A stretch of DNA of 64,000 nucleotides from Aquabacterium commune (GTDB taxonomy: Bacteria; Pseudomonadota; Gammaproteobacteria; Burkholderiales; Burkholderiaceae_C). The position numbers and the translations under genes were made by a program. The stretch lies in the NCBI RefSeq assembly GCF_004362855.1, contig NZ_SNXW01000001.1:432121-496120 (forward strand), written 5' to 3'. The notes beneath the pieces were generated by a model. The model did no database searches. It saw nothing but the letters and a program-made list of their open reading frames with translations, and was not told the origin of the DNA. Below, piece by piece: positions 13,581 through 39,197 of the stretch (the first letter of the stretch is position 1; the number at the start of each line of letters is the position of its first letter).

Positions 13581-13610
13581 GGTGTGAGCCTGTGTGCTTG
13601 TCCGGGGAGA

Positions 13611-14285: not shown

Positions 14286-14375
14286 GGGTGTACTCCTGTG
14301 GTGGGTGTGCCCGCAGACACATCTCGAAACAGGCGACCATGCGGGGGCCACATGACCCTCCCGTGACAAGCCCCA

Positions 14376-14402
14376 CACCTCCCCCTCAAGCGCGGGGAGG
14401 TG
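14376..14402. terminator. GC-rich inverted repeat, possible terminator
   Basis: A perfect 9-bp stem (CACCTCCCC / GGGGAGGTG) with a 9-nt loop lies 25 bp beyond the stop of the CocE-type gene and upstream of the lamin-tail PEP-CTERM gene. There is no T-run, so it is not a classical intrinsic terminator. It could also be an operator. Confidence 0.4.
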
Positions 14403-14426: not shown

Positions 14427-16502
14427 TCAGTTCAGCGCGCTGGTCGGCACCACGGGCAGCACGACGCTGGAGGGGTGCGCCGGGTCGCTCAAGATGGTGC
14501 TGACGTTGCCGTTGGCCTTGAGCTGCTGCGGCGTCGGCCACACGCCCTGCGCCTGGTTGCTGGCGCTGATGGCAATGCGCAGCTTGTGGCCCTTGCGGAC
14601 CAACGCCGCGGCCGGGAAGACCTCCACCGGCACCAGCATGGCCTGGCCCGGCACCACGGGCAACTTCGAGGCCTCCGTGAAGGGGTGCCAGGGCTGGACC
14701 ATCACGCCCTTGACGACGCGCGAGCGGCTGGCGTCCACCGCGCGGAAGCTGGCCGACATCAAACCCGTGCTGATGGGCGTGGCCACGCCGAAGGCATCGA
14801 CGTCATCGACGCGCACGGCCACGGCGGCCTCGGTGTTCGTGGTGCGCATCCAGATGTCGGCCTGGATGGGGCCATTGAGGTAGAGGTCGCTGGTGAGGGT
14901 CTCGGTCTGGTAGATCAGCGCGTTCTGCGTGCGCTCCACCGTGGCGCTGTTGGTGTAGCAGGGCTTGGGCAGCAGGCCCGCCATGCCCAGGGACCACTGC
15001 ACGAAGCTGCTGGAGCAGTCGCTGCCGTCGTTGATGGCGATGCTGGCCTTGACCGCCGTGCCGTCGCTGCTCTTCTCGTAGGTGACGACCGGGGCTGCGG
15101 GTTCGCGCACGGTGCGCAAGGTGTCGGCGGTGGTGGGCTTTTGCGTGCTCAGGGCCAGGTTGCCGCGCAGGTACAGGCGCTGCGGCGTCATCTGCGGGTG
15201 GGGCCAGTCGGTGGCGCGGGCGAAGCGGGTCGTGCCCAGCAGGCCATAGCCCTCGACGAACTGCGTGACGTTGGGCAAGGCGGCCGCACCGGTGTCGATG
15301 CCCTTGAGGTACTGGTCGAACCACTGCAGCATCAGCGAGGCCGAGCCCGGCGCGCCGTTGGCCAGCGCGGTGTCGGCGCCGGCCGAGGCCGACAGCACCG
15401 CCTGGATGTGCGAGCCCTTGAGCACCACCAGCTTGGTGTTGACGCGGCGCTTGAGCTGTTCGTAGAGCAGCGGCTCGTCGCGCTGGAAGATGTCGTTGCT
15501 GCTGCCCACCAGGAAGGTCGGCACCTGGACCTTGGCCGCGCCCTCCACCGGCGAGCGCACGGCCCAGAAGTCGCCATCGTCGCTGGCGTAGCCGGTCTTG
15601 CCCGACAGCGAATTGGCCACGGTGGGCAGGTACCAGCTGTCGATGGACGCGATGTGCTGCTGGTTCGCCGCCTTGATCTGCTCGGCATAAGCCGGGTTGT
15701 TGTTGATGGCCAGCGAGTTGCCCACGCTCAGCGACTGCGTCAGCGGCAGCCACAGGCTGATGAACTTGGCGTTGAGCAGGCCGCCCACGCCGACGGTGCC
15801 GCGGTAGGCATCGCCCATGGGCACTTGCGCGAACACGGCCTTGACGGCCGGGTGCTGTTGCTGCGCCGTCAGCAGGCTGGTGATGCCCAGGTAGGAGGTG
15901 CCGGCCAGGCCGAGCTGCCCGTTGAACCAGGGCTGGCGGGTGATCCAGTCCACCGCCTCGCCATAGCCGGCCTGCTCGGGCGCGCCCAGCAACTGGGCCT
16001 CGTCGCTCGACATGCCCGAGCCCAGCACGTCAACGGCCACCGAGATGTAGCCGCGCTTGTTCATGAAGCGGTCCTGGCCGCCCACCAGCAAGGTGTTGCC
16101 CGTGCCCAGCACGGTGCCGAGCAGCTGGCCCAGGTCGATGCGGTAGGCCGTCTGCGTCAGGATGACGGGGAAGGCGCCGGCCACGGCCCGGCCATTGGCA
16201 TCGGCCGGCACAGACACCAGCACCGCCAGCTTCTGCCCCGACTTCGTCGTGATGAACTGCAGCGGCAAGGTGACGGAGCCCGGGTGGTCCTCGGCCCGCG
16301 CATAGGCCTTCCAGGTGCTGCCCGCGTTGCTGGTGATGGGCGCGTTGGCTTGCGCCAGGCTGCCGCGCGTGCCCAGGGTGGTGGTTTGCGCCAGGGCGTC
16401 CACGCCCAGGCTGAGGGCGCACAGGGCTGCCATGGCGGCGGCAACGCCGCGCAAGGCCAGGGTGGCGGGTCGCGTCTTGCGGGTCAGGGTGGCGTGGGTC
16501 AT
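14427..16502 (-). CDS. CocE/NonD-family secreted hydrolase
   Basis: Alpha/beta hydrolase of the S15/CocE group (X-Pro dipeptidyl peptidase-like fold), 691 residues, which cleaves esters or amides. It has a Sec signal peptide (about 1-39, ending ALAQ). The nucleophile elbow is GTSYLG with Ser203. The middle holds the S15 core, and the end is the CocE C-terminal jelly roll, with SDLYLNGPIQADIWMRTT and RKGHKLRIAISASNQAQG. ATG 16502 has AAGGAGA upstream. It is 41 bp after a cholesterol-oxidase-like gene, which suggests an ester or lactone substrate in the same pathway. The exact substrate is unknown. Confidence 0.85.
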   Translation of the reverse strand: MTHATLTRKTRPATLALRGVAAAMAALCALSLGVDALAQTTTLGTRGSLAQANAPITSNAGSTWKAYARAEDHPGSVTLPLQFITTKSGQKLAVLVSVPADANGRAVAGAFPVILTQTAYRIDLGQLLGTVLGTGNTLLVGGQDRFMNKRGYISVAVDVLGSGMSSDEAQLLGAPEQAGYGEAVDWITRQPWFNGQLGLAGTSYLGITSLLTAQQQHPAVKAVFAQVPMGDAYRGTVGVGGLLNAKFISLWLPLTQSLSVGNSLAINNNPAYAEQIKAANQQHIASIDSWYLPTVANSLSGKTGYASDDGDFWAVRSPVEGAAKVQVPTFLVGSSNDIFQRDEPLLYEQLKRRVNTKLVVLKGSHIQAVLSASAGADTALANGAPGSASLMLQWFDQYLKGIDTGAAALPNVTQFVEGYGLLGTTRFARATDWPHPQMTPQRLYLRGNLALSTQKPTTADTLRTVREPAAPVVTYEKSSDGTAVKASIAINDGSDCSSSFVQWSLGMAGLLPKPCYTNSATVERTQNALIYQTETLTSDLYLNGPIQADIWMRTTNTEAAVAVRVDDVDAFGVATPISTGLMSASFRAVDASRSRVVKGVMVQPWHPFTEASKLPVVPGQAMLVPVEVFPAAALVRKGHKLRIAISASNQAQGVWPTPQQLKANGNVSTILSDPAHPSSVVLPVVPTSALN

Positions 16503-16543
16503 GGGGTCTCCTTGGGTGATGGGGTGTGGGGCGCGGGCCAGGC

Positions 16544-18205
16544 TCAGAAATCGCGCTGCAGGATGTGTTCGATGTTGCGTTCGGCCAGGGCGGCCACGGT
16601 CAAGGCCGGGTTGGCCACCAGCGCACCGGGGATGAGCGCGCCGTCCATGACGTAGAGCCGCTCGTACCCCGCCACGCGGCCGAACAGGTCGGTGGCCTTG
16701 CCCAGCGGGCAGCCACCCACCGGGTGGTAGGTGCTGCTGTCGGCGAAGGTCTTGCCGCTGAACAGGTCGCTGCGGTAGTGGGTGCCGGCGGCCTGGTTGA
16801 CGCGGTCGAAGATGTGCTTGGCGCTGCGCACCGCGGGCGCGTTCTGGCCGTTCCAGCGCAGCACCGCGCGGCCCGTGGTGGCGTCGTAGCCGAAGCTGCC
16901 CAGCTCGGGGTTTTGCGTCATGACGATGTTCATGTTCGCCCACGACTCCAGCACCAGCGGCAAGGGGATGTTCATGGAGAACACCGGGCGGCCATCCTGG
17001 TCGCGCGTGCGAAAGCCCGTGGCCGGCACCAGCGACTGTTTGGTGCCGGTGGGGTTCCACACCGGGTTGCCACGCACCACGAAGATGTCGCTGTTGGCGC
17101 TCCATTGCGTGCCGACGGCGCTGTTCAGGCGGGGCAAGGTGCCGGTCTCGCGGGCGCGCACCAGCATCTCGGAGGTGCCCATGCTGCCACCGGCCAGGAA
17201 GAGGTGGTCGCAGCCCAGCTCGTAGCGCTGCACGGTGTTGCCCATCACGTCGATTTCCTCGACGGTGACGACGTAGGTCCCATCGGGCGCCTGCGCGATG
17301 CGCTTGACCGAAGACATCGCGCGGATGCTCACCAGGCCCGTGCCCACGGCGTCGGCCAGGTAGTTCTTCGTCAGGTTGCGCTTGCCGTGGTTGTTGCCGT
17401 AGCCGCCTTCCATGCCCAGCGCAGACTTGGGCACCAGGCCGGCCTCTTCCTGCTCCATGTAGTTGAAGTCGTAGCCCGAGGGCAGGAAGTCCGTGGTGTA
17501 GCCGGCGCGGGCCAGGGCCGCGCGGTTGACGCGGGCGTAGCGGTGGTAGGCGCTGCCCTCGAAGTAGGCCGGTCGGATGAGGTTGGCGCCCAACTGGCCC
17601 AGGGCCTTGGGGCACTGGCGGCGCAGGAAGTCATCGACGTCGAAGCCGGTCGGCATCAGGCCCTGCAGCACCTCGCGCTGCGGCGTGATCAGCATCGCCA
17701 TGTTGACCAGCGAGCCACCGCCCACGCCTCGGCCGCAATAGACGTCCATGGCGCCGTTGGGTGCGCGCAGCACGTCGAGCACGCCTGCCGAGTACGGCAC
17801 CTTGATGTTGATGGGGATGTTGAAGAGGCTGGTGGCCACGGCCGCGGCCTGGGTCGAGAACCACATGGCGCGCTCGTCGGGTTTGAGGCTGTTGCAGAAG
17901 ATGTTGCCGTCCTTGCCCGGCTTGTTCCACAGCTGGCCCATCTCCAGCAGGGTGACGGGGATGCCGCGCTGCGCCAGGCGCATGGCGGTGACGGCGCCGC
18001 CGTAGCCGGTGCCCACGACCAGGGCGCGCACGTGCTGGGTGGCCGCGCTGGCCTGCGCGGCACCGGCCACCGACGCGGCTAGCCCGCCCGCGGCCAGGGA
18101 CCGGCCCACCGCGCTCATGGCGCCCACGGCGCCCACGCTCTGCAGGCCGAGGCCGGCGGCGGTGTGCAAGATCTGCTGGCCGAGCTGGCGGCGGGTGGGG
18201 TGCAT
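16544..18205 (-). CDS. GMC-type flavoprotein resembling class I cholesterol oxidase
   Basis: FAD alcohol oxidase or dehydrogenase of 553 residues. The N-terminus TRRQLGQQIL plus a long hydrophobic Ala/Gly region to ASA (about residue 54) looks like a Tat signal. The FAD site is VVGTGYGGAVTAMRL (GTGYGG at 65-70). Further motifs are CGRGVGGGSLVNMAML and, near the end, YHPVGGCPLG (His494) and NPALTVAALAERNIE (Asn532). The last two match the His and Asn of Streptomyces-type cholesterol oxidase. The real acceptor and substrate are unknown; a sterol or other secondary alcohol is inferred. It lies between an AraC gene and the CocE-type hydrolase on one strand. Confidence 0.82.
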   Translation of the reverse strand: MHPTRRQLGQQILHTAAGLGLQSVGAVGAMSAVGRSLAAGGLAASVAGAAQASAATQHVRALVVGTGYGGAVTAMRLAQRGIPVTLLEMGQLWNKPGKDGNIFCNSLKPDERAMWFSTQAAAVATSLFNIPINIKVPYSAGVLDVLRAPNGAMDVYCGRGVGGGSLVNMAMLITPQREVLQGLMPTGFDVDDFLRRQCPKALGQLGANLIRPAYFEGSAYHRYARVNRAALARAGYTTDFLPSGYDFNYMEQEEAGLVPKSALGMEGGYGNNHGKRNLTKNYLADAVGTGLVSIRAMSSVKRIAQAPDGTYVVTVEEIDVMGNTVQRYELGCDHLFLAGGSMGTSEMLVRARETGTLPRLNSAVGTQWSANSDIFVVRGNPVWNPTGTKQSLVPATGFRTRDQDGRPVFSMNIPLPLVLESWANMNIVMTQNPELGSFGYDATTGRAVLRWNGQNAPAVRSAKHIFDRVNQAAGTHYRSDLFSGKTFADSSTYHPVGGCPLGKATDLFGRVAGYERLYVMDGALIPGALVANPALTVAALAERNIEHILQRDF

Positions 18206-18284
18206 CGGGGCCTCCTGTTGCGTGTTGAACGAGGTCCGATGCTAGGCACTCAGCCCGCGCGCACCAATGGCCGGACTGACCAAC

Positions 18285-19319
18285 TCATTGCCCCGGGCGG
18301 CCCAGGCTTTCCCCAATGGCCACCCCCTGGTCGCGCCAGGCCGAGGGTGTCACGCCCGACCAGCGCCGAAAGGCGCGGTGGAAGCTGTGCACCGACAAAA
18401 AGCCCAGCGCCTCGGCGATCTGCTTGAGCGGCATGCGCCCCTCGGCCAGCAGGCGCTCGGCCACCAGTTGCTGGCACTCCTGCATCAGGGCGGCGTGCGA
18501 GGTGCCCAGCAGCAGCAGGTGGCGGCGCAAGGCACGCTCCTGCAGGCCCAGGTGGGCGGCGGTCTCGGCCACCGTGGGCTGGCGCGGGAAGGCCTGCAGC
18601 AGCCACTGGCGCACGCGCTCGGCCACGTCGGTGCCCGCGCGCATGGCGGCCAGCACCGATTCGGCCCGGGTGCGCGCCGACACGTAGGCCACCGGGTCGT
18701 GCATGGGCATGCGCGCGTCCAGCAGGGCGGGGTTGAAGTCGATGCCGCAGTCCTTGCGCCCGAAGGCGATGCGCGGCCCGAAGGTGGCTTCGTAGCGCTG
18801 CGCCTGGCCGACGGGCTCGGCGTAGGGGAAGTCCACCTGGAAGATGTCGGGGTTGCTGGCGCCGGCGAACTTCAGCATCTGCACGGCGCTGGTGGCCACC
18901 AGCTCCATGCGGAAGTGGCCGCTGCGGCCGTTGCGCACCACGGGCGTCACCCGCAGGCGCGCGCCGCGGGTGGACTCCACCAGCTCGATCTCGCTGTGCT
19001 CGACCGTCAGGCCGGCGAAGCGGCGCAGGTCATCGAGCAGCTGGCGCAGGCTGGGCGTGGACAGCACCAGCGGCGTGATGGTGCCGTGGCGCATCAGCGC
19101 GATGCTCTTGCCGGCCACCAGGCCGAAGGCGGCGTCGCCCGTGGCCTCGATGGCGGCGGCCATCATGCGGTCGAACAGCGCCACCGGCAGCCACTCGCCA
19201 TCGTCCTGCAAGGCCTCGGCGGACGCAAAGCCGCAGGCTTGCAAGGGACCCGACGCGTCGAAGCCTTCCACGTCGAGGGTGTAGGCCAGGATCTTCAGGT
19301 TGACGGGGGAGACGCGCAT
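18285..19319 (-). CDS. AraC-family transcriptional regulator (Arabinose_bd type)
   Basis: Regulator of about 344 residues. The N-terminal sensor (about 1-220) is of the PF12625 type seen in many catabolic AraC proteins. The C-terminal double helix-turn-helix contains LGLQERALRRHLLLLGTSHAALMQEC and IAEALGFLSVHSFHRAFRRWSGVTPSAWR. ATG 19319 is used; an in-frame GTG at 19337 is possible and neither has a clear ribosome site. It sits between the AlkB/XylM-type hydroxylase and the cholesterol-oxidase-like gene, all on the minus strand, and probably controls one of them. Confidence 0.85.
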   Translation of the reverse strand: MRVSPVNLKILAYTLDVEGFDASGPLQACGFASAEALQDDGEWLPVALFDRMMAAAIEATGDAAFGLVAGKSIALMRHGTITPLVLSTPSLRQLLDDLRRFAGLTVEHSEIELVESTRGARLRVTPVVRNGRSGHFRMELVATSAVQMLKFAGASNPDIFQVDFPYAEPVGQAQRYEATFGPRIAFGRKDCGIDFNPALLDARMPMHDPVAYVSARTRAESVLAAMRAGTDVAERVRQWLLQAFPRQPTVAETAAHLGLQERALRRHLLLLGTSHAALMQECQQLVAERLLAEGRMPLKQIAEALGFLSVHSFHRAFRRWSGVTPSAWRDQGVAIGESLGRPGQ

Positions 19320-19439
19320 GGGGACAGGGCAGGACACAGGGTCGAACGGATTGCGGGCAATGCAAGCCGGAGGATGGCCCCTGTTGCGGCGCTGTCAGGC
19401 TGGGGCTTTCCATGCGCTGCCCCCCTTGATCACGGGGCC

Positions 19440-20603
19440 TCAGCCGGCCGTCACCATCGCGGGGATGTGGCTGTCGCGGTTGGCCTGGCGGGCCAGTTCG
19501 CGCTCGGCGGCCGAGGCGTGGTCGCGGTCCCAGGCCAGCACCTTGGGCGTCATCAGCTTGTGCCACAGCGGCGGGACCATGGCCACGGCGATGGTGGTGA
19601 GGTAGCCGCCGATCATCATGGGCGCGTCGGGGAAGGGCTTGAGGTCCTGGTAGGGCACTTCGCCCTGGGCGTGGTGGTGCGAGTGGCGGGTCAGGTTGAA
19701 CATGGTCCAGGAGCTGATGCGCTTGTTCGTGTTCCACGAGTGGCGCGGCTGCACCGGGGTGGCCGGGTCGCGCACCATGCCGTAGTGCTCCATGTAGTTG
19801 ACGATCTCCAGCAGCGCCTTGCCCCACAGCGCACAGGCCACGAACCAGGCCGCGGCTTGCGCGCCGCCCAGCCAGGCGGCAGCGCCCACCAGCAGCACGC
19901 TCATCAGGTGGCCGCGGATGACGGCGTTGAAGGGCGTGAGCACGCCGTGGCCTGCGCGCTTGAGGCGCTTTTGCTCGATCTTCCAGGCGCTGATGTTGCC
20001 CTTGATGGTCGAGGCCAGGACGTGGAAGTACACGTTGCGGCCGCGCGGTGCGGTGGCCGGGTCTTCGGTGGTGGACACGTAGCGGTGGTGGCCATAGACG
20101 TGCTCGATGGCGAACACCGTGTCGAAGCTGAAGGCCAGCAGCCAGCGCCCGACCAGCATCGAGACCGGGTCCCAGGTGCGGTGCGTCAGCTCGTGCGCGG
20201 GGATGGTGCCGATCATGCCGATCATCAGGCCGGTGAGCACCACGCCCGAGACGTGGTGGCCCCAGTGGGCCGCATCGCGCATGGCGATGGCGTCGTGGCC
20301 GGTGAACTGCTGCACCAGAGCGCCCAGGCCCAGGGCGTCACCGGGGCTGACCGACCACACGAAGGCCAGCACGATGGCCGACAGCAGCGGCAAGGCCATC
20401 CAGAGCTGGACGGTCAGGATGCCGGTGTGCTGGAGCTTGGGCGTGGCCGTGTCGTCGCCACAGACGGCGTCACCCACCATGTAGATGGCCAGCACGGCGA
20501 TCAGCCCGACCGTGACCCAGACGCCGCCGGCCATCAGCATGGTCAGGGCCAGCAGGCCAATGGCATGGAACAGGAAGTACTTGAGGTAGTGGAACAGCGT
20601 CAT
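19440..20603 (-). CDS. Membrane di-iron hydroxylase, AlkB/XylM family
   Basis: Integral membrane monooxygenase of 387 residues that hydroxylates a terminal or benzylic methyl group. All histidine boxes are present: HELTH (137-141), HVYGHH (168-173), NYMEHYG (269-275) and RHSHHH (306-311). Hydrophobic segments lie at about 13-46, 62-84, 118-136 and 232-262. The C-terminal stretch PPLWHKLMTPKVLAWDRDHASAAERELA, as I recall it, resembles the end of xylene monooxygenase XylM. The core reads equally like alkane hydroxylase AlkB. GAGGAG precedes ATG 20603. It is 80 bp downstream of a ferredoxin reductase gene, its likely electron donor. Confidence 0.88.
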   Translation of the reverse strand: MTLFHYLKYFLFHAIGLLALTMLMAGGVWVTVGLIAVLAIYMVGDAVCGDDTATPKLQHTGILTVQLWMALPLLSAIVLAFVWSVSPGDALGLGALVQQFTGHDAIAMRDAAHWGHHVSGVVLTGLMIGMIGTIPAHELTHRTWDPVSMLVGRWLLAFSFDTVFAIEHVYGHHRYVSTTEDPATAPRGRNVYFHVLASTIKGNISAWKIEQKRLKRAGHGVLTPFNAVIRGHLMSVLLVGAAAWLGGAQAAAWFVACALWGKALLEIVNYMEHYGMVRDPATPVQPRHSWNTNKRISSWTMFNLTRHSHHHAQGEVPYQDLKPFPDAPMMIGGYLTTIAVAMVPPLWHKLMTPKVLAWDRDHASAAERELARQANRDSHIPAMVTAG

Positions 20604-20683
20604 GGGGGTGTCTCCTCGGTGGCGATCAGGCGTCGCTTGTCATGTGGATCAGGCAGGGGCGCAGCAAGCGCTCCGGCAGAGGT

Positions 20684-21739
20684 TCAGGCAGCCGCGGCCA
20701 GGTCGTGCTGCGTGGTGAAGCGGTCGGCGTGGATGTGCGCGCCGGGCAGGCCGCGCTGCAGGAGCACGGCGCGGGCGCTGTCCACCATGGGCGGCGGGCC
20801 GCAGAGGTAGGCGTGGCTGTCGGCAAAAGTTCGGTCGCTCAGGGCGTGCTCGGCCAGGACGTCCACCACCAGGCCGCGCAGGCCTTGCCAGGACGAGCCC
20901 TCGGGCTCTTGCGAGAGCACGGGCACGAAGGCGAAGTGGCGCGGCCATTGGCGCGCCAGCTCGGTGAGGGTGTCCAGGGCGCAGAGGTCGGCCTGGGTGC
21001 GCGCGCCGAACAGCAGCGTGACCGGCCGCTTCACGCCCGCACACAGGGCCTCTTCCAGGATGGCCAGCACCGGCGCCAGGCCGCTGCCACCGGCCACCAT
21101 CAGCATCGGCGCCTCGGCGGTGCGCAGCCAGAAGTCGCCCATCGGCCCTTCGACGCTGACGCTCTGGCCGACCAGCGCTTGCGCGTGGATGTGCGAGGAG
21201 AAGACCCCGCCCGGCACCTTGCGCACGAAAAAGCTCACCTGGGCGTCGGGCTGCATGCGCGTGGCGAAGGAGTAGCTGCGCGAGACCCCGGGCAAGCCTG
21301 CGATGGCCAGCTGCGCGAACTGCCCGGCCTTGTAGGGCAGCGTGCCGTCGAGCTGGATGCGCAGCCGCACGATGTCGTGGGTGAGGTGGTCTTGCGCGAT
21401 GACGCGGCCAGCCACCTGCTGGCGCGCGGCGGCGCCCTGGGTGTCCACCGTGACCTTGACGTCGCCCCGGGGCACGCTCTGGCAGGCCAGGATGTAGCCT
21501 TGGTCCAGCTCGGCGTCGGACAGGATGTAGCCGGCCTGGGTCAGCTCCTTGACCCGGCCCTCCACCAGGCGGCACTTGCAGGTGGCGCAGCCGCCCACGC
21601 GGCAGCTGTGGGGAAAGTCGATGCCCTGGCGCAAGGCGGCCTGCAGCAGCGTCTCCTTGGGCTGGACGGTGATGGCGACGTCGTTGACCAGGGCGGTCAC
21701 GGGCTTGTCGGCCTGGAATTTGGACAGCAACCAGCGCAT
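20684..21739 (-). CDS. XylA-type ferredoxin-NAD(P)H reductase
   Basis: Three-domain electron-transfer protein of 351 residues. The N-terminus is a plant-type [2Fe-2S] ferredoxin with ligands Cys46, Cys51, Cys54 and Cys86. It is followed by a flavin domain with the RSYSFA motif and an NAD(P)-binding domain with VAGGSGLAPVLAIL and CGPPPMVDSA. Domain order matches XylA of xylene monooxygenase and similar reductases. It would pass electrons from NADH to the downstream di-iron hydroxylase, replacing the rubredoxin and rubredoxin reductase used by classical AlkB. It is divergent from a second AraC gene. Confidence 0.9.
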   Translation of the reverse strand: MRWLLSKFQADKPVTALVNDVAITVQPKETLLQAALRQGIDFPHSCRVGGCATCKCRLVEGRVKELTQAGYILSDAELDQGYILACQSVPRGDVKVTVDTQGAAARQQVAGRVIAQDHLTHDIVRLRIQLDGTLPYKAGQFAQLAIAGLPGVSRSYSFATRMQPDAQVSFFVRKVPGGVFSSHIHAQALVGQSVSVEGPMGDFWLRTAEAPMLMVAGGSGLAPVLAILEEALCAGVKRPVTLLFGARTQADLCALDTLTELARQWPRHFAFVPVLSQEPEGSSWQGLRGLVVDVLAEHALSDRTFADSHAYLCGPPPMVDSARAVLLQRGLPGAHIHADRFTTQHDLAAAA

Positions 21740-21837
21740 GCACGCTCCCTTCGATCAGGCAATTGGCAGGGGCCCAGGCACGGGGCCAGGGATGCGTTCA
21801 TCGTAGGAAACGGGGCTGGGGTGCGGGAGGGCCCGCG

Positions 21838-21866
21838 TTGACATCGACAGGTCATTTATTGACAAT
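21838..21866 (+). promoter_or_regulatory. Candidate sigma-70 promoter for the second AraC gene
   Basis: A perfect -35 box TTGACA (21838-21843), a 17-bp spacer and GACAAT (21861-21866) as a moderate -10 box lie just upstream of the AraC start at 21887. A second TTGACA begins inside the -10 area, so the region also carries a short direct repeat. Confidence 0.45.
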
Positions 21867-21886
21867 CGCGGCCCGGAACCCATCCC

Positions 21887-22888: not shown

Positions 22889-23205
22889 AGGGCGGCCCGC
22901 CGCCTTCGGCGAGCGATGCGCCGTGCACTTTCCGCGGCACGTCGGGCACCTCACCCCCATGCGCCGTGCTTTGTGCGACAAGCGCCGCGCAATTGGCGAC
23001 AAAACTTCCGTCAGCGCGGGCCATCGGCCGCGCGCGGAGGGCCGCGCTCCGCGCTTTTCGCGACACGCTCGGCGCGCCCAGTGCGGCGCTCGGCCCGCGA
23101 AGTGCCACGCACGGCACAGCCCGACGCAAAAGATGACTTGCCGACCGCGGTCGATGGCACTGCCAGTGCGGTGCACGGCACTTTCAGCGCGGCACGCCGC
23201 CCCGC
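22889..23205. other. 317-bp intergenic region between convergent genes, with repeated motifs
   Basis: No gene is visible between the convergent AraC and sigma-54 activator genes. GCACTTTC followed by CGCGGCACG occurs near each end: 22925-22941, and 23178-23196 with two extra bases. Two GCGACAA copies lie 21 bp apart (22975 and 22996). A 6-1-6 palindrome, GCACTG-c-CAGTGC, is at 23157-23169. No intrinsic terminator with a T-run was found for either gene. Confidence 0.45.
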
Positions 23206-25212
23206 TCAGGCGGCTTTGGCGCCCAAACGGCGGTACAGCGTCGCCCGGCCGATGCCCAGCAGCTTGGCCGCGGCGGTGACGTTGCCTTCGCAGCGGGCAA
23301 GGGCGGCTTCGATGGCCTCGTCCTGCGCTTTTTGCATCAGGTTCGGCACCGGATTCGGCGCCAAAGCCCCGCCCACACCGCCCACCCCGGCCTCCGGCAT
23401 GGCCTGGCGCAGCGCCGCCACGCCGACCGCGCCCTGCGGCTCGGCCAAAGCCAGCACGCGCTTGAGCACCTGGCGCAGCTGGCGCACATTGCCCGGCCAG
23501 GGCTGGGCGGCCAGCCAGGCGCGGGCCTCGGTGTCCAGGCGGCCCAGGGGGCAGGCCATGTCGGCCAGCAAGGCCTGGAGCAAGGCGTCGAAGGCACTGC
23601 GCTCGCGCAGGGGCTTGATGTGGAACTCGTAGCCGGCCAGGCGGTAGTACAGGTCCTCGCGGAAGCGGCCTTGCGCCACCAGAGCGCGCAGGTCCTGGTG
23701 GGTCGCGCTGACGATGCGCACGTCCACCTTGCGGGATTGCGCCGCGCCCAGGCGCACCACCTCGCGGCTGTCGAGCACGCGCAGCAGCGTGGCCTGCACG
23801 CCCAGGGGCATGTCGCCGATCTCATCGAGGAACAGGGTGCCGCCATGCGCGGCCTCGACCTTGCCGCAGGCGCCGCCCTTGCGTGAGCCGGTGAAAGCGC
23901 CATCGACGTGGCCGAACATCTCGCCGGCCAGCAACTCGGCCGGCAGGCCCGCGCAGTTCACGGCCACGAAAGGTGACTTGGGGTTGTGGCGCAGGCGGTG
24001 GCTGTGCGCGTGCAGCGCCTGCGCCACCAAGTCCTTGCCGCAGCCCGTCTCGCCGGTGATCAGCACCGGCAGGTCGGCGGCGTAGGCGCGGCTGGCCAGG
24101 GCGAAGGTCTGGCCCAGGTCGGCATCGCCCAGCTCCAGGGCAGTCACCTTGGCGCTCACATTGGCGGTCACATTGGCGGTCACATTGGCGGGCCAGGGGC
24201 CGCCGGCCGGCGTGTCCGTGGCGTCGCCCATGGCCCCCATCGCACCGAACGCACGCTGGCGACGCCCTGCCGCGCCATTGAGCACGCGGGCGCGCAGCTG
24301 GATGCCACCGCGCAGGCGCAAGGCCAGGCGCTCGGGGGCGGCCAGGGCCTGGTCCATCCAGTGCTGGAAGCCGCCCTCGAAGACGTCGTCGAAGTGGATG
24401 CCATCGACCTCGGGCGCCAGGCTCATGAGCTGGCGCGCGCTGCGGCTGATGGCCATGAGCTCGCCGTCCTCGCCGATGGCCAGCAAAGCCTGGGAGCCGC
24501 CACTGCCACCACCGTCCAGGCCCTGGGCCAGGTCCAGCTCGACGTGCAGGAAGGCGGGGCGGGACTCGAACAGCCCGCGCTCGATGCGGTTGGCGCAGCG
24601 CTGGGCCAGCCACAGCGAGCTCTCCAGCATGCCGGGCATGTCGCGGCTGATGTCCACCGTGGCCACGATGCGCCCTGAGGGGTCGAACACCGGCACGGCG
24701 CAACAGTGGAAAATCTGCGTGGCCGAGAGGTAGTGCTCGGGCCCGAAGATGCGCACGGCCTGGTGCTCGGCCAGGGCCACGCTCATGGCGCTGCTGCCGA
24801 TGACCTGCTCGGAGACGTCCACCCCCGGGCGGAAGGCGCGGCGGAAGAACACGTTCTGCGACGGTGTGGCGCCCTCGGCCAGCAGCACCACGCCACTGGC
24901 GTCGGTCAGCATGACGGCGTAGCCCGCGTCGGCCACGGCACCGGCCAGCGTTTCCACGGCGGGACGGGCCGCGCTCAGCAGCATGGCGTGGCGCTCCAGC
25001 AGGGTGCCCAGCGCAGGGCGGTCGAGCTGGCAGAAGTCGATGGCCTCGTCCGGGCGGCGGCCCAGCGACTGGCAGCGTTGCCAGGAACGCAGCACCACGT
25101 CCGACACCAGGCCGTGCGGCGCGCGCCCTTCGTCGAAGAAGCTGCGTCGGGCAGACCAGATCTGCTCGGGTCGGTAAGCGGCAACCGCCTGGAAAGAGCG
25201 CGTGGGGGACAT
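23206..25212 (-). CDS. Sigma-54-dependent transcriptional activator, AcoR-like
   Basis: Enhancer-binding protein of 668 residues. Residues about 1-330 hold an AcoR-type GAF sensor, with the signature GLVSDVVLRSWQRCQSLG and SEQVIGSSAMSVALAEHQAVRIFGPEHYL. The AAA+ domain has Walker A GETGCGKD (387-394), the sigma-54 contact loop GAFTGS (438-443) with Ser in place of the usual last Ala, and Walker B GGTLFLDEIGD. The C-terminal Fis-type HTH is GNVTAAAKLLGIGRATLYRRL. A tandem 12-bp repeat lies in the linker before the AAA+ domain. It is divergent from the aldehyde dehydrogenase operon, its likely target. ATG 25212 is chosen by homology. Confidence 0.9.
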   Translation of the reverse strand: MSPTRSFQAVAAYRPEQIWSARRSFFDEGRAPHGLVSDVVLRSWQRCQSLGRRPDEAIDFCQLDRPALGTLLERHAMLLSAARPAVETLAGAVADAGYAVMLTDASGVVLLAEGATPSQNVFFRRAFRPGVDVSEQVIGSSAMSVALAEHQAVRIFGPEHYLSATQIFHCCAVPVFDPSGRIVATVDISRDMPGMLESSLWLAQRCANRIERGLFESRPAFLHVELDLAQGLDGGGSGGSQALLAIGEDGELMAISRSARQLMSLAPEVDGIHFDDVFEGGFQHWMDQALAAPERLALRLRGGIQLRARVLNGAAGRRQRAFGAMGAMGDATDTPAGGPWPANVTANVTANVSAKVTALELGDADLGQTFALASRAYAADLPVLITGETGCGKDLVAQALHAHSHRLRHNPKSPFVAVNCAGLPAELLAGEMFGHVDGAFTGSRKGGACGKVEAAHGGTLFLDEIGDMPLGVQATLLRVLDSREVVRLGAAQSRKVDVRIVSATHQDLRALVAQGRFREDLYYRLAGYEFHIKPLRERSAFDALLQALLADMACPLGRLDTEARAWLAAQPWPGNVRQLRQVLKRVLALAEPQGAVGVAALRQAMPEAGVGGVGGALAPNPVPNLMQKAQDEAIEAALARCEGNVTAAAKLLGIGRATLYRRLGAKAA
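24157..24192. repeat. Three tandem 12-bp repeats inside the sigma-54 activator gene
   Basis: The unit CACATTGGCGGT occurs twice exactly and a third time with the last base changed. On the coding strand it encodes repeated Ala-Asn-Val-Thr at about residues 342-352, between the sensor and AAA+ domains. Because the unit is 12 bp, gain or loss of copies would keep the frame. Confidence 0.8.
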
Positions 25213-25427
25213 GGGTGCAAAGCGGAACAACAGTGAGCCGCGACAGTACCCAGCCCGGGGCGAACGCGCAATCGGTGACGGCCCGGTGGGGCCCAGGGGA
25301 GGTCCTCGGTGCGCTCTCGGGGGCGCCCAGGGCCTGCCTTGGGCGTGCCTCGGGATGGCCTCGGGCGTGCCTGTCCGGGCCAGCCGCGCGTTCGCATGCC
25401 GCACACCGCGCCGCGCCGTTCGTGCCG

Positions 25428-25490
25428 CCGTCTCAAAGTGAGACGGCCACTGCGCCATGAGACACCCCCTGAGACGAGACGGGCCGAGAC
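25428..25490. promoter_or_regulatory. Inverted-repeat array, probable activator binding sites
   Basis: A perfect palindrome CCGTCTCA-aag-TGAGACGG spans 25428-25446. It is followed by further half-sites TGAGAC at 25458-25463, TGAGAC at 25470-25475, and GAGAC at 25476-25480 (after a one-base shift) and 25486-25490. The array lies about 290 bp upstream of the aldehyde dehydrogenase start and 215 bp upstream of the sigma-54 activator start. This is a typical place for enhancer sites of such activators. That the neighbouring activator binds here is inference. Confidence 0.6.
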
Positions 25491-25535
25491 AGCGGCATGC
25501 CAGACCCTGCCGACACGCTCGGTGTTAACCCGACA

Positions 25536-25550
25536 CCTTCCCTGGGAAGG
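25536..25550. promoter_or_regulatory. Perfect 7-1-7 palindrome
   Basis: CCTTCCC-t-GGGAAGG is a perfect inverted repeat 183 bp upstream of the aldehyde dehydrogenase start. A shorter related palindrome, TTCCCGGGAA, occurs at 31373-31382 upstream of the DUF3683 gene. It could be an operator or a small hairpin. Confidence 0.35.
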
Positions 25551-25733
25551 CGGGCCGTGCGGCGCCGCATGGGCATGAGCTGGATCAATTTGTGCGCTCT
25601 GTCAGGCATGGCCAGCGTGGCCCACCGACCACCGACCTGGCCACCCAAGCTGTCCGCCCAGCTGGCGACAGACCACAGCACACCGCAAGAAGCCGCGACC
25701 GACCGCGACAGACCGTGACTCAAAGGAGACGAA

Positions 25734-27233
25734 GTGAATAACCCCGCCAACAACGCGTCCATTCCAAACACCGCCCCGGCCTGGGAGGCCCGCATCTTCA
25801 GCCCCGGCTGGCGCGCCTCCGAAGGCGGCCACGTGGCCGTGATGGAGCCCGCCACGGGCGAGACCATCGGCGCCATCGGCGTGGCCAACCAGGCCGATGT
25901 GCAGCGCGCCGTGCAGGTGGCCGCGCAGGCCAACGCCGGCTGGGCCGCCACGCCCTTCGACCAGCGCGCCGAGGTGATGCGCCGCGCCGCCACCCTGCTG
26001 CGCGAACGCGCCACCGAGTTCCACCACTGGAACGTGCGCGAATGTGGCTCCATCGGCCCGAAGGCCGAGTGGGAGCTGCACGCCACGTACGAACAGCTGC
26101 AGATGTGCGCCGCCCTGCCCATGCAGCCCATCGGCGAGATCTACCCCTCCACCCTGCCCGGCCGCATCAACCACGTGCAGCGCGTGCCGCTGGGCACCGT
26201 CGCCGTGATCACGCCCTGGAACTTCCCGCTGTTGCTGGCCATGCGCTCGGTGGCCCCGGCCCTGGCCATGGGCAACACCGTCATCCTCAAGCCCGACCTG
26301 CAGGCCGCCGTCACGGGGGGCGCCTTGATCGCCCAGCTGTTCGCTGACGCCGGCCTGCCCGAAGGCGTGCTGCAGGTGCTGCCCGGTGGCCCCGAGGCGG
26401 GTGAGGCGCTGGTGCAGCACCCGGACGTGGCCATGGTGTCCTTCACCGGCTCGACCGCCGTGGGCCGCCACATCGGTGAGGTGTGCGGGCGCATGCTCAA
26501 GAAGTGCATCCTGGAGCTGGGCGGCAACAACGTGCTGATGGTGCTCGAAGACGCCGACCTCGACGCCGCCGCCTCCAGCGGTGCCTGGGGCGCCTTCCTG
26601 CACCAGGGTCAGATCTGCATGCAGGCCGGCCGCCACCTCGTGCACCGCAGCGTGGCCGCGGCCTATGCCGACAAGCTGCGCGCCCGTGCCGAAGCCCTGG
26701 TCGTGGGCGACCCGCACCGCGCTCAGGTCCACCTGGGCCCGGTCATCAACCGCCGCCAGCACGAGCGCATCGACGAAATCGTGCAGGACGCCGTGCGCGC
26801 CGGTGCGCGCCTGCTGACGGGTGGCCCCGTGAGTGGCCCGAACGCAGGCCTGTTCTACCGCCCCACCGTGCTGGCCGACGTCGGCACCGAGATGCGCGCC
26901 TTCAAGGAAGAGATTTTCGGCCCGGTGGCGCCCATCACCGTCTTCGACACCGAAGACGAGGCCATCGCCCTGACCAACGCTTCGCCCTATGGCCTGGCCG
27001 CTGGCATCCACACCCGCCAGCCGCACCGCGCCCAGCAAATCGCGCAGCGCCTGCACACCGGCATGGTCCACATCAACGACCAGACCGTGAACAACGAGTT
27101 CCACGTGCCTTTCGGTGGCATGGGCGCCTCGTCCGGCAACGGCAGCCGCTTCGGTGGCCCGGCCAACCTGCACGAGTTCACCCAGACCCAGTGGGTGAGC
27201 GTGATGGCCCAGGGCATCCAGTACCCGTTCTGA
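25734..27233 (+). CDS. NAD(P)-dependent aldehyde dehydrogenase, benzaldehyde dehydrogenase (XylC)-like
   Basis: Oxidises an aldehyde to the acid in the cytoplasm. It has 499 residues. Catalytic features are Glu261 in LELGGNN and Cys295 in HQGQICMQAGRHLV. The cofactor region includes VAVITPWNFP, ILKPDLQAAVTGG and SFTGSTAVGRHIG. The GQIC and AGRHLV context, by memory of the family, is that of aromatic aldehyde dehydrogenases such as XylC and vanillin dehydrogenase. The start is GTG 25734, fixed by the strong AAAGGAGA just before it. It leads an operon with the MetA-type protein and a two-subunit GMC dehydrogenase. Confidence 0.92.
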   Translation: MNNPANNASIPNTAPAWEARIFSPGWRASEGGHVAVMEPATGETIGAIGVANQADVQRAVQVAAQANAGWAATPFDQRAEVMRRAATLLRERATEFHHWNVRECGSIGPKAEWELHATYEQLQMCAALPMQPIGEIYPSTLPGRINHVQRVPLGTVAVITPWNFPLLLAMRSVAPALAMGNTVILKPDLQAAVTGGALIAQLFADAGLPEGVLQVLPGGPEAGEALVQHPDVAMVSFTGSTAVGRHIGEVCGRMLKKCILELGGNNVLMVLEDADLDAAASSGAWGAFLHQGQICMQAGRHLVHRSVAAAYADKLRARAEALVVGDPHRAQVHLGPVINRRQHERIDEIVQDAVRAGARLLTGGPVSGPNAGLFYRPTVLADVGTEMRAFKEEIFGPVAPITVFDTEDEAIALTNASPYGLAAGIHTRQPHRAQQIAQRLHTGMVHINDQTVNNEFHVPFGGMGASSGNGSRFGGPANLHEFTQTQWVSVMAQGIQYPF

Positions 27234-27292
27234 GCCCCGTCCCCCTGTTCCGAGCTTTCCCCCACCCCTGCCCATTCCAAAAGGAGACACCC

Positions 27293-28198
27293 ATGAGCCT
27301 GTCCAAATCCCTGTTCCCATCCCTGCGCGCATCGGCCCTGGCCGCCGTCGCATGCTGCACCCTCACCAGCCAGAGCGCCCACGCCATCGACATCGACGCC
27401 GGTGACTACACCGCCCTGCCCGAAGGCACCAACGTCGTCGCCCTGTACGGCCAGCACGCGCAACGCAACAGCCTGTATGCCCGCGGCGACCAGGTCAACG
27501 GCAACTACGGCCTGGACTCCAACATCGGCGTGCTGCGCATCATCCACTTCACCAAGATCGCCGGCTACATCGTGGACCCGCAGATCCTGCTGCCCTTCGG
27601 TGAGCTGAAAGCCAAGGGCGATGTGGCCCCCGTGCTGAGCAAGGGCAGCGGCGTGGCCGATGCCATCTTCGCGGCCACGGTCTGGACCCTCAACGACCCG
27701 GTCAACCGCCGCTACCTGGGCATCACGCCCTTCGTCTATGCCCCGATTGGCAACTACGACCGCAACAAGGCCCTGAACCTCGGCGAAAACCGCTGGAAGT
27801 ACGCGCTGCAGGTCGGCTACATCCACGGCATCGGTGAAAAGTTCACGGTGGACCTCGCCGCCGACGTGACGGTCTATGGCAAAAACAACCGGGCCAACGC
27901 TGCAGGACAGACCCTGGAACAAAACCAAAGCTACCAATTGCAGGCCTTCCTGCGCTATGACCTGCGCCCGGGCATCGACCTGCGCGCCGGCCTGTCGCGC
28001 GGGTACAGCGGCAGCAACCAGCTGGACGGCGTCAGCCAGGCCAACACGGGCAACCGCGTGGACAAATTCCAGCTGGGCACCGCAGCCTTCATCACCCCCA
28101 CCACGCAGGTCATGGCGCTGTGGGGCAAGGACCTGACGGTGAGCAACGGTTTCAAGGAAAACTCGCGCATCAACGTCCGCCTGCTGCAACTGTTCTGA
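27293..28198 (+). CDS. Outer-membrane protein of the MetA-pathway (phenol degradation) transporter family
   Basis: Predicted beta-barrel of 301 residues with a Sec signal peptide (about 1-31, ending AHA). The family pattern is visible in DYTALPEGTNVVALYGQHAQ, in the alternating amphipathic strands after it, and in LGITPFVYAPIGNYD. The protein ends in phenylalanine (RLLQLF), typical of outer-membrane barrels. Such proteins (PF13557) accompany degradation of aromatic and other hydrophobic compounds and probably help uptake. AAAAGGAGA precedes ATG 27293. It lies 59 bp after the aldehyde dehydrogenase and 37 bp before the Tat-tagged small subunit. Confidence 0.85.
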   Translation: MSLSKSLFPSLRASALAAVACCTLTSQSAHAIDIDAGDYTALPEGTNVVALYGQHAQRNSLYARGDQVNGNYGLDSNIGVLRIIHFTKIAGYIVDPQILLPFGELKAKGDVAPVLSKGSGVADAIFAATVWTLNDPVNRRYLGITPFVYAPIGNYDRNKALNLGENRWKYALQVGYIHGIGEKFTVDLAADVTVYGKNNRANAAGQTLEQNQSYQLQAFLRYDLRPGIDLRAGLSRGYSGSNQLDGVSQANTGNRVDKFQLGTAAFITPTTQVMALWGKDLTVSNGFKENSRINVRLLQLF

Positions 28199-28235
28199 CC
28201 CCGGACACCGCCCCACACCCCCACGAGGAGACCCC

Positions 28236-28856
28236 ATGAGCACGTCGATGCCCTCCACCGAGATCGCCGAGATCGCCCAGGCCGCCGCGGCCCTGCGCCA
28301 GCTGCCACGGCGCCAGTTCCTGCGCGCGGCCACCGCCGCCGCAGCCGCCGCCACGGCCGCCTTGACCCTGGGCCCCACGCTGGCCTTCGCCGCACAGGCC
28401 ACCGCCTCTTTGCCCGCGCTGAAGTTCATGAACGCCGACGAGGCCGCCGTGATGCAACGCCTGCTGGAAGTGATGCTGCCCACTGCGGGCACGTCCCTGC
28501 TGCCGCTGGCCCAGGTGCCCATGCTGCAAACCCTGGACGCGGCCCTGCTGGCCACCATGGCGCCGCACATCCTCGCGGGCCTCAAGGGCGGCATCGGCTA
28601 TTTCAATGAAGGCCCGCAGGCCACCTTCGGCAAGCGCTTCGTGGACCTCTCCGACGAGCAGGCCATCCGCTTTTGCGACAGCTGGGCCAACGCGCCCGAA
28701 GAGCCCAAGCGCGCCCTGAGCATGGGCCTCAAGAAGCTCCTGGCCCTGTCCTACTTCGCCAACCCGCCCACCTGGGCCCCGCTGGGCTACCCCGGCCCCT
28801 TCACGCGCCGCAGCGGCATCCCCTCGTTGGGCAACGCACCTGCCCCACAGGCCTGA
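28236..28856 (+). CDS. Tat-exported small subunit of a GMC dehydrogenase (gluconate 2-dehydrogenase subunit 3-like)
   Basis: Protein of 206 residues with a twin-arginine motif LPRRQFLRAA at about 23-32. An Ala-rich hydrophobic stretch follows, ending near AFAAQA (about 53). The mature part is helical and lacks Cys clusters: FMNADEAAVMQRLLEVMLP, then DLSDEQAIRFCDSWAN and ALSMGLKKLLALSYFANPP. This pattern and position match small subunits that export and stabilise a GMC flavoprotein. The next gene, 32 bp downstream, is the flavoprotein and has no signal peptide of its own. No cytochrome subunit is encoded nearby. Confidence 0.75.
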   Translation: MSTSMPSTEIAEIAQAAAALRQLPRRQFLRAATAAAAAATAALTLGPTLAFAAQATASLPALKFMNADEAAVMQRLLEVMLPTAGTSLLPLAQVPMLQTLDAALLATMAPHILAGLKGGIGYFNEGPQATFGKRFVDLSDEQAIRFCDSWANAPEEPKRALSMGLKKLLALSYFANPPTWAPLGYPGPFTRRSGIPSLGNAPAPQA

Positions 28857-28888
28857 AGTCCGACGCACCCCACGGAGACAGACACACC

Positions 28889-30481
28889 ATGAACACCGTT
28901 CACATCGCCAAGAACAAGGCCCGCATCCCCGCCGCCGCCGTGCCCAAGCACGGCCTGCAGGTCACCCAGGCCTCGGACATCCGCGACAGCCAGATCAGCT
29001 GGGAAGCCGATGCCGTCGTGATCGGCTCGGGCGCTGGTGGCGCCATCGCCGCCTTCGAGCTGGCCAAATCGGGCAAGAAAGTCATCGTGCTGGAGGCCGG
29101 CCCCTACGTGCCCTCCGAGAAATTCACCGAGATGCTGGCCGTCAGCATGGGCCAGCTGTATGCCGACCACGGCGGCCAGAACAACGCCACCGGCGACATC
29201 GCCATCCTGCAAGGCGCTTGCGTGGGTGGCTCCACCGTGGTGAACGCCGCGCTGTGCTTCCGCACGCCCGACCACTACCTGCACGCCTGGGGCAAGGATT
29301 TCGGCCTGACGAACCTGACGCCCGCCGTCATGAAGCCCTACTTCGAGCTGGTCGAGCGCAACCTGCGCATCAACACCGTGGCGGGACACGAAACCAGTGC
29401 CGGCGCCGAGTTGATCGGCAAGGGCCTGGACAAGCTGCGCCTGCCGCGCGGCAAGGCCCGCCGCAACGTCAAGGACTGCGTGATGAGCGGCGCCTGCTTC
29501 TCGGGCTGCGCCTCCGACCGCAAGCAGTCCATGCTGGTCACCTACCTGCCCTGGGCCGTCTCGCACGGCGCCAAGATCGTGGCCGACACCCGCGTCACGC
29601 GCATCCTCACCACCGAGGGCCGCGCCAGTGGCGTCGAGGCCGAGGTGATCGACCCGGCCACCGGCCAGAAAAAGGCCGACGTGGTGGTGAAGGCGCCCCT
29701 CGTGGTGCTGGCCGCCGGCCCGGTGCAATCGCCCGTGCTGTTGCTGCGCAGCGGCATCGCCAACAGCAGCGGCCAGGTCGGCAAGAACTTCGCCTGCCAC
29801 CCGACCATGTCCGTCACGGGCATCTTCTCGCAGGACGTGCGCGATTTCTTCGGCGCCACCCACTCGCTGTACATGGACAAGTACACCCTGCCCCAGGCCG
29901 GCGGCTACCTGCTGCTCAACGCCGTGCAGGACCCGGTCGAGGCCAGCACCCAGGTCGAGCCCGGCACCGGCAAGCCCTATGCGGCCTACATGACGCACTA
30001 CAAGAACACGGTGCGCCTCATCAGCCTCATCCACGACAAGAACTGCGGCGAAGTCACCTGGAACAATGGCGTCAAGGAGATCAAGTACGACGTTGACGAC
30101 GAGGACTTCGAGGCCATGAAAAAGGGCCTGATCACCACGGCACGCGTGCTGTGGGCCTCGGGCGCCAAGACGCTGCACATCCCGGCGTCGCAGAAGGTGG
30201 AGATCACCCGCGAGCAGGACATCGTGCCGACCATCATGGCGCTGAAGAACGAGAAGTCGCGTTACCGCTACACCTCCTTCCACCCGCAAGGCACCTGCCG
30301 CATGGGCGCCGACCCGAAGCGCACCGTGGTCAACCCGCAGGGCGAAACGCACGATGTGCGCAGCCTCTACGTGGTGGACGCCAGCCTGCTGCCCACTTCG
30401 ATTGGCTACAACCCCTCGGAGACGGTCTATGCCCTGGCCCACTACGTGGTGGACGGCATCACCGGCAAGAGAAAGGCCTGA
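28889..30481 (+). CDS. GMC-family FAD alcohol dehydrogenase, large subunit
   Basis: Flavoprotein of 530 residues oxidising an alcohol, substrate unknown. The FAD-binding motif is VVIGSGAGGAIAAFELAKSG (about 43-62), and the flavin contact region is GACVGGSTVVNAALCF. The C-terminal catalytic region has FHPQGTCRMG (His) and SIGYNPSETVYALAHYVVDG (Asn). It has an unusual Cys cluster, Cys197-x5-Cys203-x3-Cys207 in KDCVMSGACFSGCASDRKQS, that might bind an Fe-S centre or form a disulfide. No signal peptide is seen, so export with the Tat-tagged small subunit is inferred. It could supply aldehyde to the dehydrogenase at the start of the operon. Confidence 0.88.
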   Translation: MNTVHIAKNKARIPAAAVPKHGLQVTQASDIRDSQISWEADAVVIGSGAGGAIAAFELAKSGKKVIVLEAGPYVPSEKFTEMLAVSMGQLYADHGGQNNATGDIAILQGACVGGSTVVNAALCFRTPDHYLHAWGKDFGLTNLTPAVMKPYFELVERNLRINTVAGHETSAGAELIGKGLDKLRLPRGKARRNVKDCVMSGACFSGCASDRKQSMLVTYLPWAVSHGAKIVADTRVTRILTTEGRASGVEAEVIDPATGQKKADVVVKAPLVVLAAGPVQSPVLLLRSGIANSSGQVGKNFACHPTMSVTGIFSQDVRDFFGATHSLYMDKYTLPQAGGYLLLNAVQDPVEASTQVEPGTGKPYAAYMTHYKNTVRLISLIHDKNCGEVTWNNGVKEIKYDVDDEDFEAMKKGLITTARVLWASGAKTLHIPASQKVEITREQDIVPTIMALKNEKSRYRYTSFHPQGTCRMGADPKRTVVNPQGETHDVRSLYVVDASLLPTSIGYNPSETVYALAHYVVDGITGKRKA

Positions 30482-30498
30482 TCACAGGCACGGGCTGA

Positions 30499-39142: not shown

Positions 39143-39197
39143 GTTCTTGTCTCCTTGGACCCACGGGCCCTGAAGGCCCGTCGTCGTCACCTGCGGG

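Follow-up and report, generated by a model that had tools for sequence, protein, structure and literature searches.

A catabolic gene island of Aquabacterium commune that probably combines three separately controlled modules at one chromosomal site

We analysed a stretch of 64,000 nucleotides of Aquabacterium commune DNA (contig NZ_SNXW01000001.1 of assembly GCF_004362855.1; hereafter the window, to which all coordinates refer), in which genes for oxidative catabolism form an island at 14427-30481. The host genome comprises 4.2 Mb in 39 contigs and is labelled G000 in the genome comparisons (G, L and C numbers are our handles for genomes, loci and contigs). Open-reading-frame and profile scans recovered every gene that a first-pass annotation of this DNA had named, each where it had been placed, including the hydroxylase, alcohol dehydrogenase and aldehyde dehydrogenase (ALDH) genes that it had taken for one or two linked routes. 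Two corrections were required: gdh3, at 28236-28856 between omp and gmc, had been overlooked, and frame reading puts the start of the right-hand gmc gene near 28889, not at the mechanical start of its open reading frame (28673). The island, whose features are given below, probably consists of three separately controlled modules (A, B and C) that share one chromosomal site, and not of a single pathway.

14427-16502, minus strand: cocE, CocE/NonD-family (S15) hydrolase, module C (PF02129, E 3e-39; PF08530, E 2e-29; TIGR00976, 202.6 bits, cut-off 66.3)
16544-18205, minus strand: choX, class-I cholesterol-oxidase homologue of the GMC type, module C (E 5e-157 to cholesterol oxidase chains)
18285-19337, minus strand: araC1, AraC-family regulator, module C (PF12625, PF12833)
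19440-20603, minus strand: hydM, di-iron membrane hydroxylase, module A (PF00487, E 1.5e-28; AlkB 8f6t, E 4.5e-40)
20684-21739, minus strand: redA, XylA-type 2Fe-2S/FAD/NAD reductase, module A (PF00111, PF00970, PF00175)
21838-21864, no strand assigned: predicted module-A operator TTGACA-N6-GGTCATTTATTGACA between araC2 and redA (conserved string)
21887-22888, plus strand: araC2, AraC-family regulator divergent from redA-hydM, module A (PF12625, PF12833)
22878-30486, no strand assigned: 7609-bp segment holding all of module B, absent in G599 (blastn)
23206 to ~25212, minus strand: sig54, GAF plus sigma-54 activator plus Fis helix-turn-helix protein, module B (PF00158, E 1.5e-60; PF02954; PF01590); the start is the probable one, the longest open reading frame beginning at 25458
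25430-25444, no strand assigned: palindrome GTCTCA-N3-TGAGAC, predicted upstream activating site (genome scan)
25734-27233, plus strand: aldh, benzaldehyde-dehydrogenase-like (XylC-type) ALDH, module B (PF00171, E 1e-159)
27287-28198, plus strand: omp, Phenol_MetA_deg outer-membrane protein, module B (PF13557, E 1.4e-35)
28236-28856, plus strand: gdh3, Gluconate_2-dh3-type small subunit, module B (PF13618, 33.1 bits, cut-off 23.4)
28889-30481, plus strand: gmc, catalytic subunit of a GMC dehydrogenase, module B (PF00732, E 9e-44; PF05199)

To characterize the cohesion of these genes, we surveyed 42 Aquabacterium genomes, 31 of which are at least 90% complete and no more than 5% contaminated. 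choX was found in 28 (E <= 1e-100), hydM in 23 and gmc in 2. choX and hydM occur together in 15 genomes, where these totals predict 15.3 by chance, and no more than 20 kb separates them in two of the 15 (G000 and G033); in 21 of the 42 genomes hydM is present and gmc was not found. Among 200 genomes of the family, HydM appeared in 10 (E <= 1e-40), ChoX in 4 (E <= 1e-60) and GMC in 3 (E <= 1e-100), the host genome included each time. Related genomes also carry parts of the island at its chromosomal site. The mur-ligase and glycerophosphodiesterase (gdpd) genes are directly adjacent in G581, G571 and G569; the same gap in G590 holds araC1 and cocE as its only island genes, without choX, hydM or gmc, and hydM lies on another contig. 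A 4371-bp contig of G599 carries hydM-redA-araC2 followed directly by gdpd and lacks exactly window positions 22878-30486, with a flush junction; by blastn, window segments 19435-22877 and 30487-31270 are contiguous there (L127). The C-terminus of AraC2 in G599 differs from that of other orthologues, and the rest of this 82%-complete assembly yielded no match for gmc or choX. Such partial islands can be read as a view of a catabolic island growing or shrinking at one site.

A foreign composition of module B was considered and rejected, its guanine-plus-cytosine content (0.694) being nothing notable beside those of modules A (0.693) and C (0.700), with the flanks at 0.665-0.671. No tRNA gene that would mark a tRNA-linked island was found within the 64-kb window. 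Two genes for PEP-CTERM proteins (SdiA-regulated and lamin-tail domain) occupy 12540-14378, between cocE and the mur ligase; the pair is present in G033, and no such genes were seen at this site in G590, G581, G571 and G569. In the G033 locus (L028), the interval between hydM and araC1, at about 11760-12150 of L028, is ~360 bases longer than in the window.

To examine control, we compared the intergenic regions. TTGACA-N6-GGTCATTTATTGACAAT is common to the araC2-redA gap and the promoter of a paralogous hydM on contig C4, the remainder of the gap having diverged. When 18 of the 29 Aquabacterium hydM places were searched, GGTCA-N5-TGACA or TCATTTATTGAC was present in 17 (missing in L108), and the same string appeared in 1 of 18 choX loci (L095). 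Stricter forms are present in L030, from another genus. The exact 15-mer of the operator occurs twice in the 4.2-Mb genome, both times at hydM promoters, and araC2 adjoins redA/hydM in relatives as well.

Module B has a site of a different kind. The palindrome GTCTCA-N3-TGAGAC upstream of aldh is the sole perfect copy in the genome (0.11 expected from composition), and nine perfect copies occur in 7 of 23 loci from other genera, every one upstream of module genes (0.016 expected in 375 kb), with a close variant in three further loci. Neither hydM nor choX has a perfect palindrome nearby; the window holds seven matches in total where chance would give 20.8, and the six besides the perfect one have three mismatches each. 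Of 21 module promoters scored for a sigma-54-type element, 15 have one that stands out from base shuffles (p <= 0.03); weak ones include G033 (p 0.54), L064 (0.62), L058 and L059 (0.07 and 0.04) and L066 (0.07), and in the window the gaps at redA and choX gave p 0.76 and 0.80. A strict sigma-54 promoter scan of the window returned scattered matches, none of them within the gap upstream of aldh. Modules A and B thus have distinct conserved sites without cross-sites. Because of these two distinct sites and the divergent orientation of the genes, we set aside a single operon or regulon for the island.

The hydroxylase of module A matches solved AlkB structures (best E 4.5e-40) and no NCBIfam model at E 0.001. 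Its motifs AHELTHR, EHVYGHHR, NYMEHYGM, RHSHHHA and PRHSWN align with those of AlkB rows, including the NYxEHYG signature. A tree of 27 rows places HydM within a 15-row clade (100/99), separate from a group of five XylM-type rows (100/100), two of which are annotated xylM, and from six AlkB-type rows (100/99), two of which adjoin rubredoxin genes, with row L021 standing alone; one of the 15 clade rows, L003, duplicates the genome's own paralogue, and the program warns of long-branch joins. Identification of HydM as XylM was rejected on these grounds: it is only 30% identical to XylM, lies outside the five-row XylM clade and has AlkB-like motifs. RedA is 42% identical to the reductase beside xylM on pWW53 and is likely the electron donor of HydM. 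Three members of the HydM clade are single reductase-hydroxylase frames of 755-772 residues (L030, L032 and L055); in the window the two proteins are encoded by adjacent genes (20684-21739 and 19440-20603). On the same contig C4 of this genome (L035:10428-14470) stands a second hydM-redA pair, 75% and 65% identical, which shares the conserved site and has another AlkB-like hydroxylase gene next to it.

Judged by motifs and tree position, HydM is a predicted AlkB-clade hydroxylase of the reductase-coupled kind. Passages of PMC8918992 describe a fused reductase-AlkB enzyme that was expressed and found active, and name the kind ferr_ferrR_AlkB; with PMC12903215, they present such enzymes as AlkB-type di-iron hydroxylases served by a ferredoxin/ferredoxin-reductase module in place of rubredoxin, the arrangement also predicted for HydM. 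Unlike the window pair these enzymes are fused, and the likeness drawn here is one of architecture; the tree contains no characterised fused alkane enzyme, so that their membership of the clade also rests on architecture. According to passages of PMC12903215, a 754-residue fused enzyme on an integrative and conjugative element of P. putida EM2-4 is required for growth on n-octane, the strain also grows on n-decane and not on hexane or dodecane, and a preference for C10-C12 is cited for other fused enzymes. Because the fused HydM relatives have the same architecture as the characterised fused enzymes, medium-chain alkanes are by analogy the most likely substrates of HydM. Growth on alkanes is established in the genus for Aquabacterium strain NJ1, which has five AlkB-type oxygenases (PMC4256197).

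Module B was followed by searching the named genome collection with gmc, which gave 24 loci, one of them G033 and the other 23 from 22 strains of other genera. By tblastn, these 23 loci contain gmc (23), aldh (22; L071 at 36% only), gdh3 (22), sig54 (20; L060 partial) and omp (15), and hydM was found in none of them, up to 9 kb per side being examined and several loci ending at contig ends. gmc and gdh3 are paired in 22 of the 23. A class-wide search of 369 genomes with gmc (E <= 1e-120) returned the host genome only; G033 was not among the matches. On Alteromonas macleodii plasmid pKD02, the module-B set lies in a stretch flanked by Tn3 transposase genes.

The Gdh3 N-terminus matches the TAT_signal model weakly (19.7 bits, E 8e-04, below the Pfam cut-off of 22.7) and contains by eye the twin-arginine motif RRQFLRA, from which export of the GMC subunit via its small partner is inferred. 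His465, Asn508 and Cys197/203/207 of GMC are invariant across 13 aligned rows; the profile alignment to FAD-glucose dehydrogenase-type structures 6a2u and 8hdd leaves the three cysteines uncovered, and their invariance suggests an Fe-S centre. No domain of a XylB-type (Zn) benzyl alcohol dehydrogenase was found in a scan that covered genes of the island and not the remainder of the genome; GMC and Gluconate_2-dh3 are present instead. The earlier proposal that a periplasmic GMC enzyme replaces the usual alcohol dehydrogenase holds in part: the place of XylB is indeed taken by a GMC enzyme whose partner is probably exported, although the setting is most likely a cassette for benzyl alcohol.

Over 485 residues, the ALDH shares 58% identity with the benzaldehyde dehydrogenase of TOL plasmid pWW53, and its best solved matches are hydroxybenzaldehyde and benzaldehyde dehydrogenases. 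We examined the flanks of module B through the open reading frames of 13 of the 23 loci and a profile scan of eight flank proteins from three loci. In Alteromonas oceani (L073) the neighbours form a ben-cat cluster: BenD, CatA and muconate cycloisomerase exceed their NCBIfam cut-offs, and BenA falls short (739.8 vs 780.95). The neighbours in P. neustonica (L069) include PcaF, which passes its cut-off, and PcaD, which does not. Benzoate/catechol-type neighbours were matched in L078 and L079 by clustering and the open-reading-frame table only, and L061 has a salicylyl-CoA-hydroxylase-like neighbour at 403.7 bits (cut-off 1078). The host genome itself encodes BenA and BenB, both above cut-off, on contig C2. 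Because the ALDH is 58% identical to the TOL enzyme, four loci adjoin ben-cat/pca-type genes and benAB is present in the genome, a conversion of a benzyl-type alcohol to benzoate by module B has good but not full support from these comparisons. The are genes of Acinetobacter ADP1 provide a parallel: they encode a benzyl ester esterase, benzyl alcohol and benzaldehyde dehydrogenases and the sigma-54 regulator AreR beside ben-cat. The likeness to module B lies in sigma-54-controlled conversion of benzyl alcohol to benzoate near ben-cat; AreB, however, is a Zn-type alcohol dehydrogenase and not an exported GMC complex.

In module C, ChoX is homologous to class-I cholesterol oxidase over ~495 residues (PDB 1b4v, 1b8s and 1coy) and scores 94.9 bits against the NCBIfam cholesterol oxidase model NF058674, whose cut-off is 850. 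Like the class-I enzyme it keeps His447 and Asn485 (ChoX His494 and Asn532); unlike it, ChoX has a methionine, Met411, in place of Glu361. Across 23 ChoX rows, methionine occupies this position in 20 (19 after removal of an A. olei duplicate), glutamate in two and neither in one, from another genus. Among the distinct Aquabacterium sequences, the window's included, methionine is found in 19 of 21 and glutamate in two (L047 and L098), these rows covering 21 of the 38 Aquabacterium choX places and leaving mostly second copies or more distant genes. The genus thus has two cholesterol-oxidase-like groups, with Glu (L047, L098) or Met (L081-L097) at the Glu361 position. Passages of PMC5722936 treat Glu361 as the base of cholesterol oxidase, and a title in its reference list states that E361Q suppresses isomerisation, not oxidation. 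Methionine should be unable to act as such a base; sterol chemistry by ChoX is therefore doubtful, and the enzyme may oxidise some alcohol. The ChoX N-terminus appears Tat-like (twin-arginine) and that of CocE signal-peptide-like, both by eye, and in CocE both the S15 catalytic domain and the PepX_C domain score above cut-off. A protein encoded on Aquabacterium olei plasmid pTB101 shares 83-85% identity with ChoX, and an AraC1 homologue (63%) adjoins choX there; the order is araC1-choX-cocE, with no HydM match within the 33.6 kb examined.

We propose that the 16-kb stretch is a composite island at the mur-ligase/glycerophosphodiesterase gene junction in one Aquabacterium lineage. In module A, AraC2 would act at its own operator and turn on RedA-HydM; RedA would feed electrons to HydM, which would hydroxylate terminal methyls of medium-chain alkanes. 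In module B, the GAF-sigma-54 activator would sense an aromatic inducer, bind GTCTCA-N3-TGAGAC and drive expression of ALDH, the outer-membrane protein, the small subunit and GMC. The outer-membrane protein may admit the substrate, and the partner with the Tat signal would carry the GMC dehydrogenase to the periplasm, where it would oxidise a benzyl-type alcohol and pass electrons to the respiratory chain; the XylC-like ALDH would then make benzoate for the benzoate dioxygenase encoded by benAB. In module C, AraC1 would control the probably exported ChoX and the esterase CocE, which together may hydrolyse and oxidise some ester or alcohol. Genes for methyl-accepting chemotaxis proteins are found near some loci of every module type (window 37613-39442, PF00015; from relatives or annotations, L035:7612-9165, L053:19866-21431, L056:8887-9894 and L135:2322-3587), and a link of chemotaxis to the module substrates is possible.

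Several results weigh against this three-module reading or its parts. The entire island is syntenic in one other Aquabacterium genome, G033; the modules have therefore been together since the two lineages diverged, a persistence that would fit selection on their joint use. The absence of module B in G599 is seen on one 4.4-kb contig of an 82%-complete assembly and may reflect either loss there or gain in G000 and G033. HydM relatives in L055 and L029 have GMC, ALDH and acyl-CoA ligase genes as neighbours, and the one in L031 has a GMC gene, so that a partnership of HydM with GMC dehydrogenases recurs. On the regulatory side, the palindrome with up to two mismatches is no more frequent than its control (35+35 vs 39+39), nor is the 15-mer with up to three (6+3 vs 3+7; 9 vs 10); the strict operator core was not found in L029 (G159), L031, L032, L054 and L055, nor the looser form in L108; and the -24/-12 element of the window's own aldh is weak (score 22, shuffle p 0.43). 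As to the benzoate link, two unannotated plasmid ALDHs (H63 and H64, with no annotated features around them) are closer than the TOL enzymes (65% and 64%), the 25 NCBIfam models listed include no ALDH model that scores above its cut-off, and just 4 of the 23 module-B loci were recognised as adjoining benzoate/catechol genes. The first-pass annotation had pointed to conservation in other genomes as the check on a linked set: full synteny is found in G033, but homologues lie in unrelated loci in nearly all other relatives examined. One linked route is thus not borne out, its halves being apart in those relatives, their conserved sites separate and module B absent in G599; several catabolic routes are supported and one linked pathway is not. 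Modules A and B may cooperate where they are adjacent, and nothing found requires it.

Among alternatives, the one that survives best, though we consider it unlikely, is a single TOL-like route, in which HydM and RedA would attack the ring methyl of an alkylbenzene, GMC and ALDH would lead on to benzoate and the lower pathway would lie elsewhere in the genome. The adjacency of A and B in G000 and G033 and the recurrent neighbourhood of HydM with GMC dehydrogenases favour it, and the XylC relative, the XylA-type reductase and benAB fit the TOL parts list, as does benzoate as the predicted product. The island departs from the pWW53 upper pathway in a hydroxylase of another clade than XylM, with AlkB-like motifs, in GMC and Gluconate_2-dh3 at the place of XylB, and in its regulator layout; further evidence against such a route comes from the separate conserved sites, from the 23 module-B loci of other genera without HydM and from the 21 Aquabacterium genomes with hydM and no detected gmc. 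Less probable again is one aliphatic route on the AlkB-AlkJ-AlkH logic, from HydM through 1-alkanols to fatty acids by a relaxed module-B GMC and ALDH, as the sets of GMC, ALDH and acyl-CoA ligase beside HydM relatives on Polaromonas pPNAP01 and in G159 might suggest; those GMC enzymes are distant (L029, 32%; L055, 25% over part), and the module-B ALDH is XylC-like, with hydroxybenzaldehyde and benzaldehyde dehydrogenases as its best solved relatives. The alkBFGHJKL genes of P. putida GPo1, as passages of PMC8918992 set them out, share with the island a hydroxylase, the choline-dehydrogenase-like AlkJ, an ALDH and an outer-membrane protein. They differ in that the island genes lack rubredoxin and acyl-CoA ligase, have a GMC type with a Gluconate_2-dh3 partner and include three regulators. 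The earlier remark that no described pathway has this exact set may hold for the exact set, but its plan of hydroxylase, GMC and ALDH (with acyl-CoA ligase) is that of alkBFGHJKL. A sterol, terpenoid or alkyl-ester pathway over the entire island, the substrate range first suggested, is very improbable: for all that a strong cholesterol-oxidase homologue and a CocE-type hydrolase are adjacent and all genes lie within 16 kb, methionine replaces the catalytic Glu361, araC1-choX-cocE occurs without HydM on pTB101, and araC1-cocE stands without choX, hydM or gmc at the same site in G590.

Within the three-module reading, the new part is the predicted exported benzyl-alcohol cassette, for which no description was found in the passages of open-licence literature searched. 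A bolder proposal, possible but doubtful, is that module B is an undescribed mobile and self-regulated cassette for extracytoplasmic oxidation of benzyl-type alcohols by a two-subunit, probably Fe-S-containing GMC enzyme linked to the respiratory chain instead of the NAD-dependent XylB, parked here beside an alkane hydroxylase, as in a TOL-like pathway mid-assembly from separately switched parts. The one-pathway view of the island is corrected to three testable units, two of them with predicted operators. If confirmed, module B would be a widely spread substitute for the textbook XylB step, and the cassette would be recoverable in other genomes through its palindrome and gene set.

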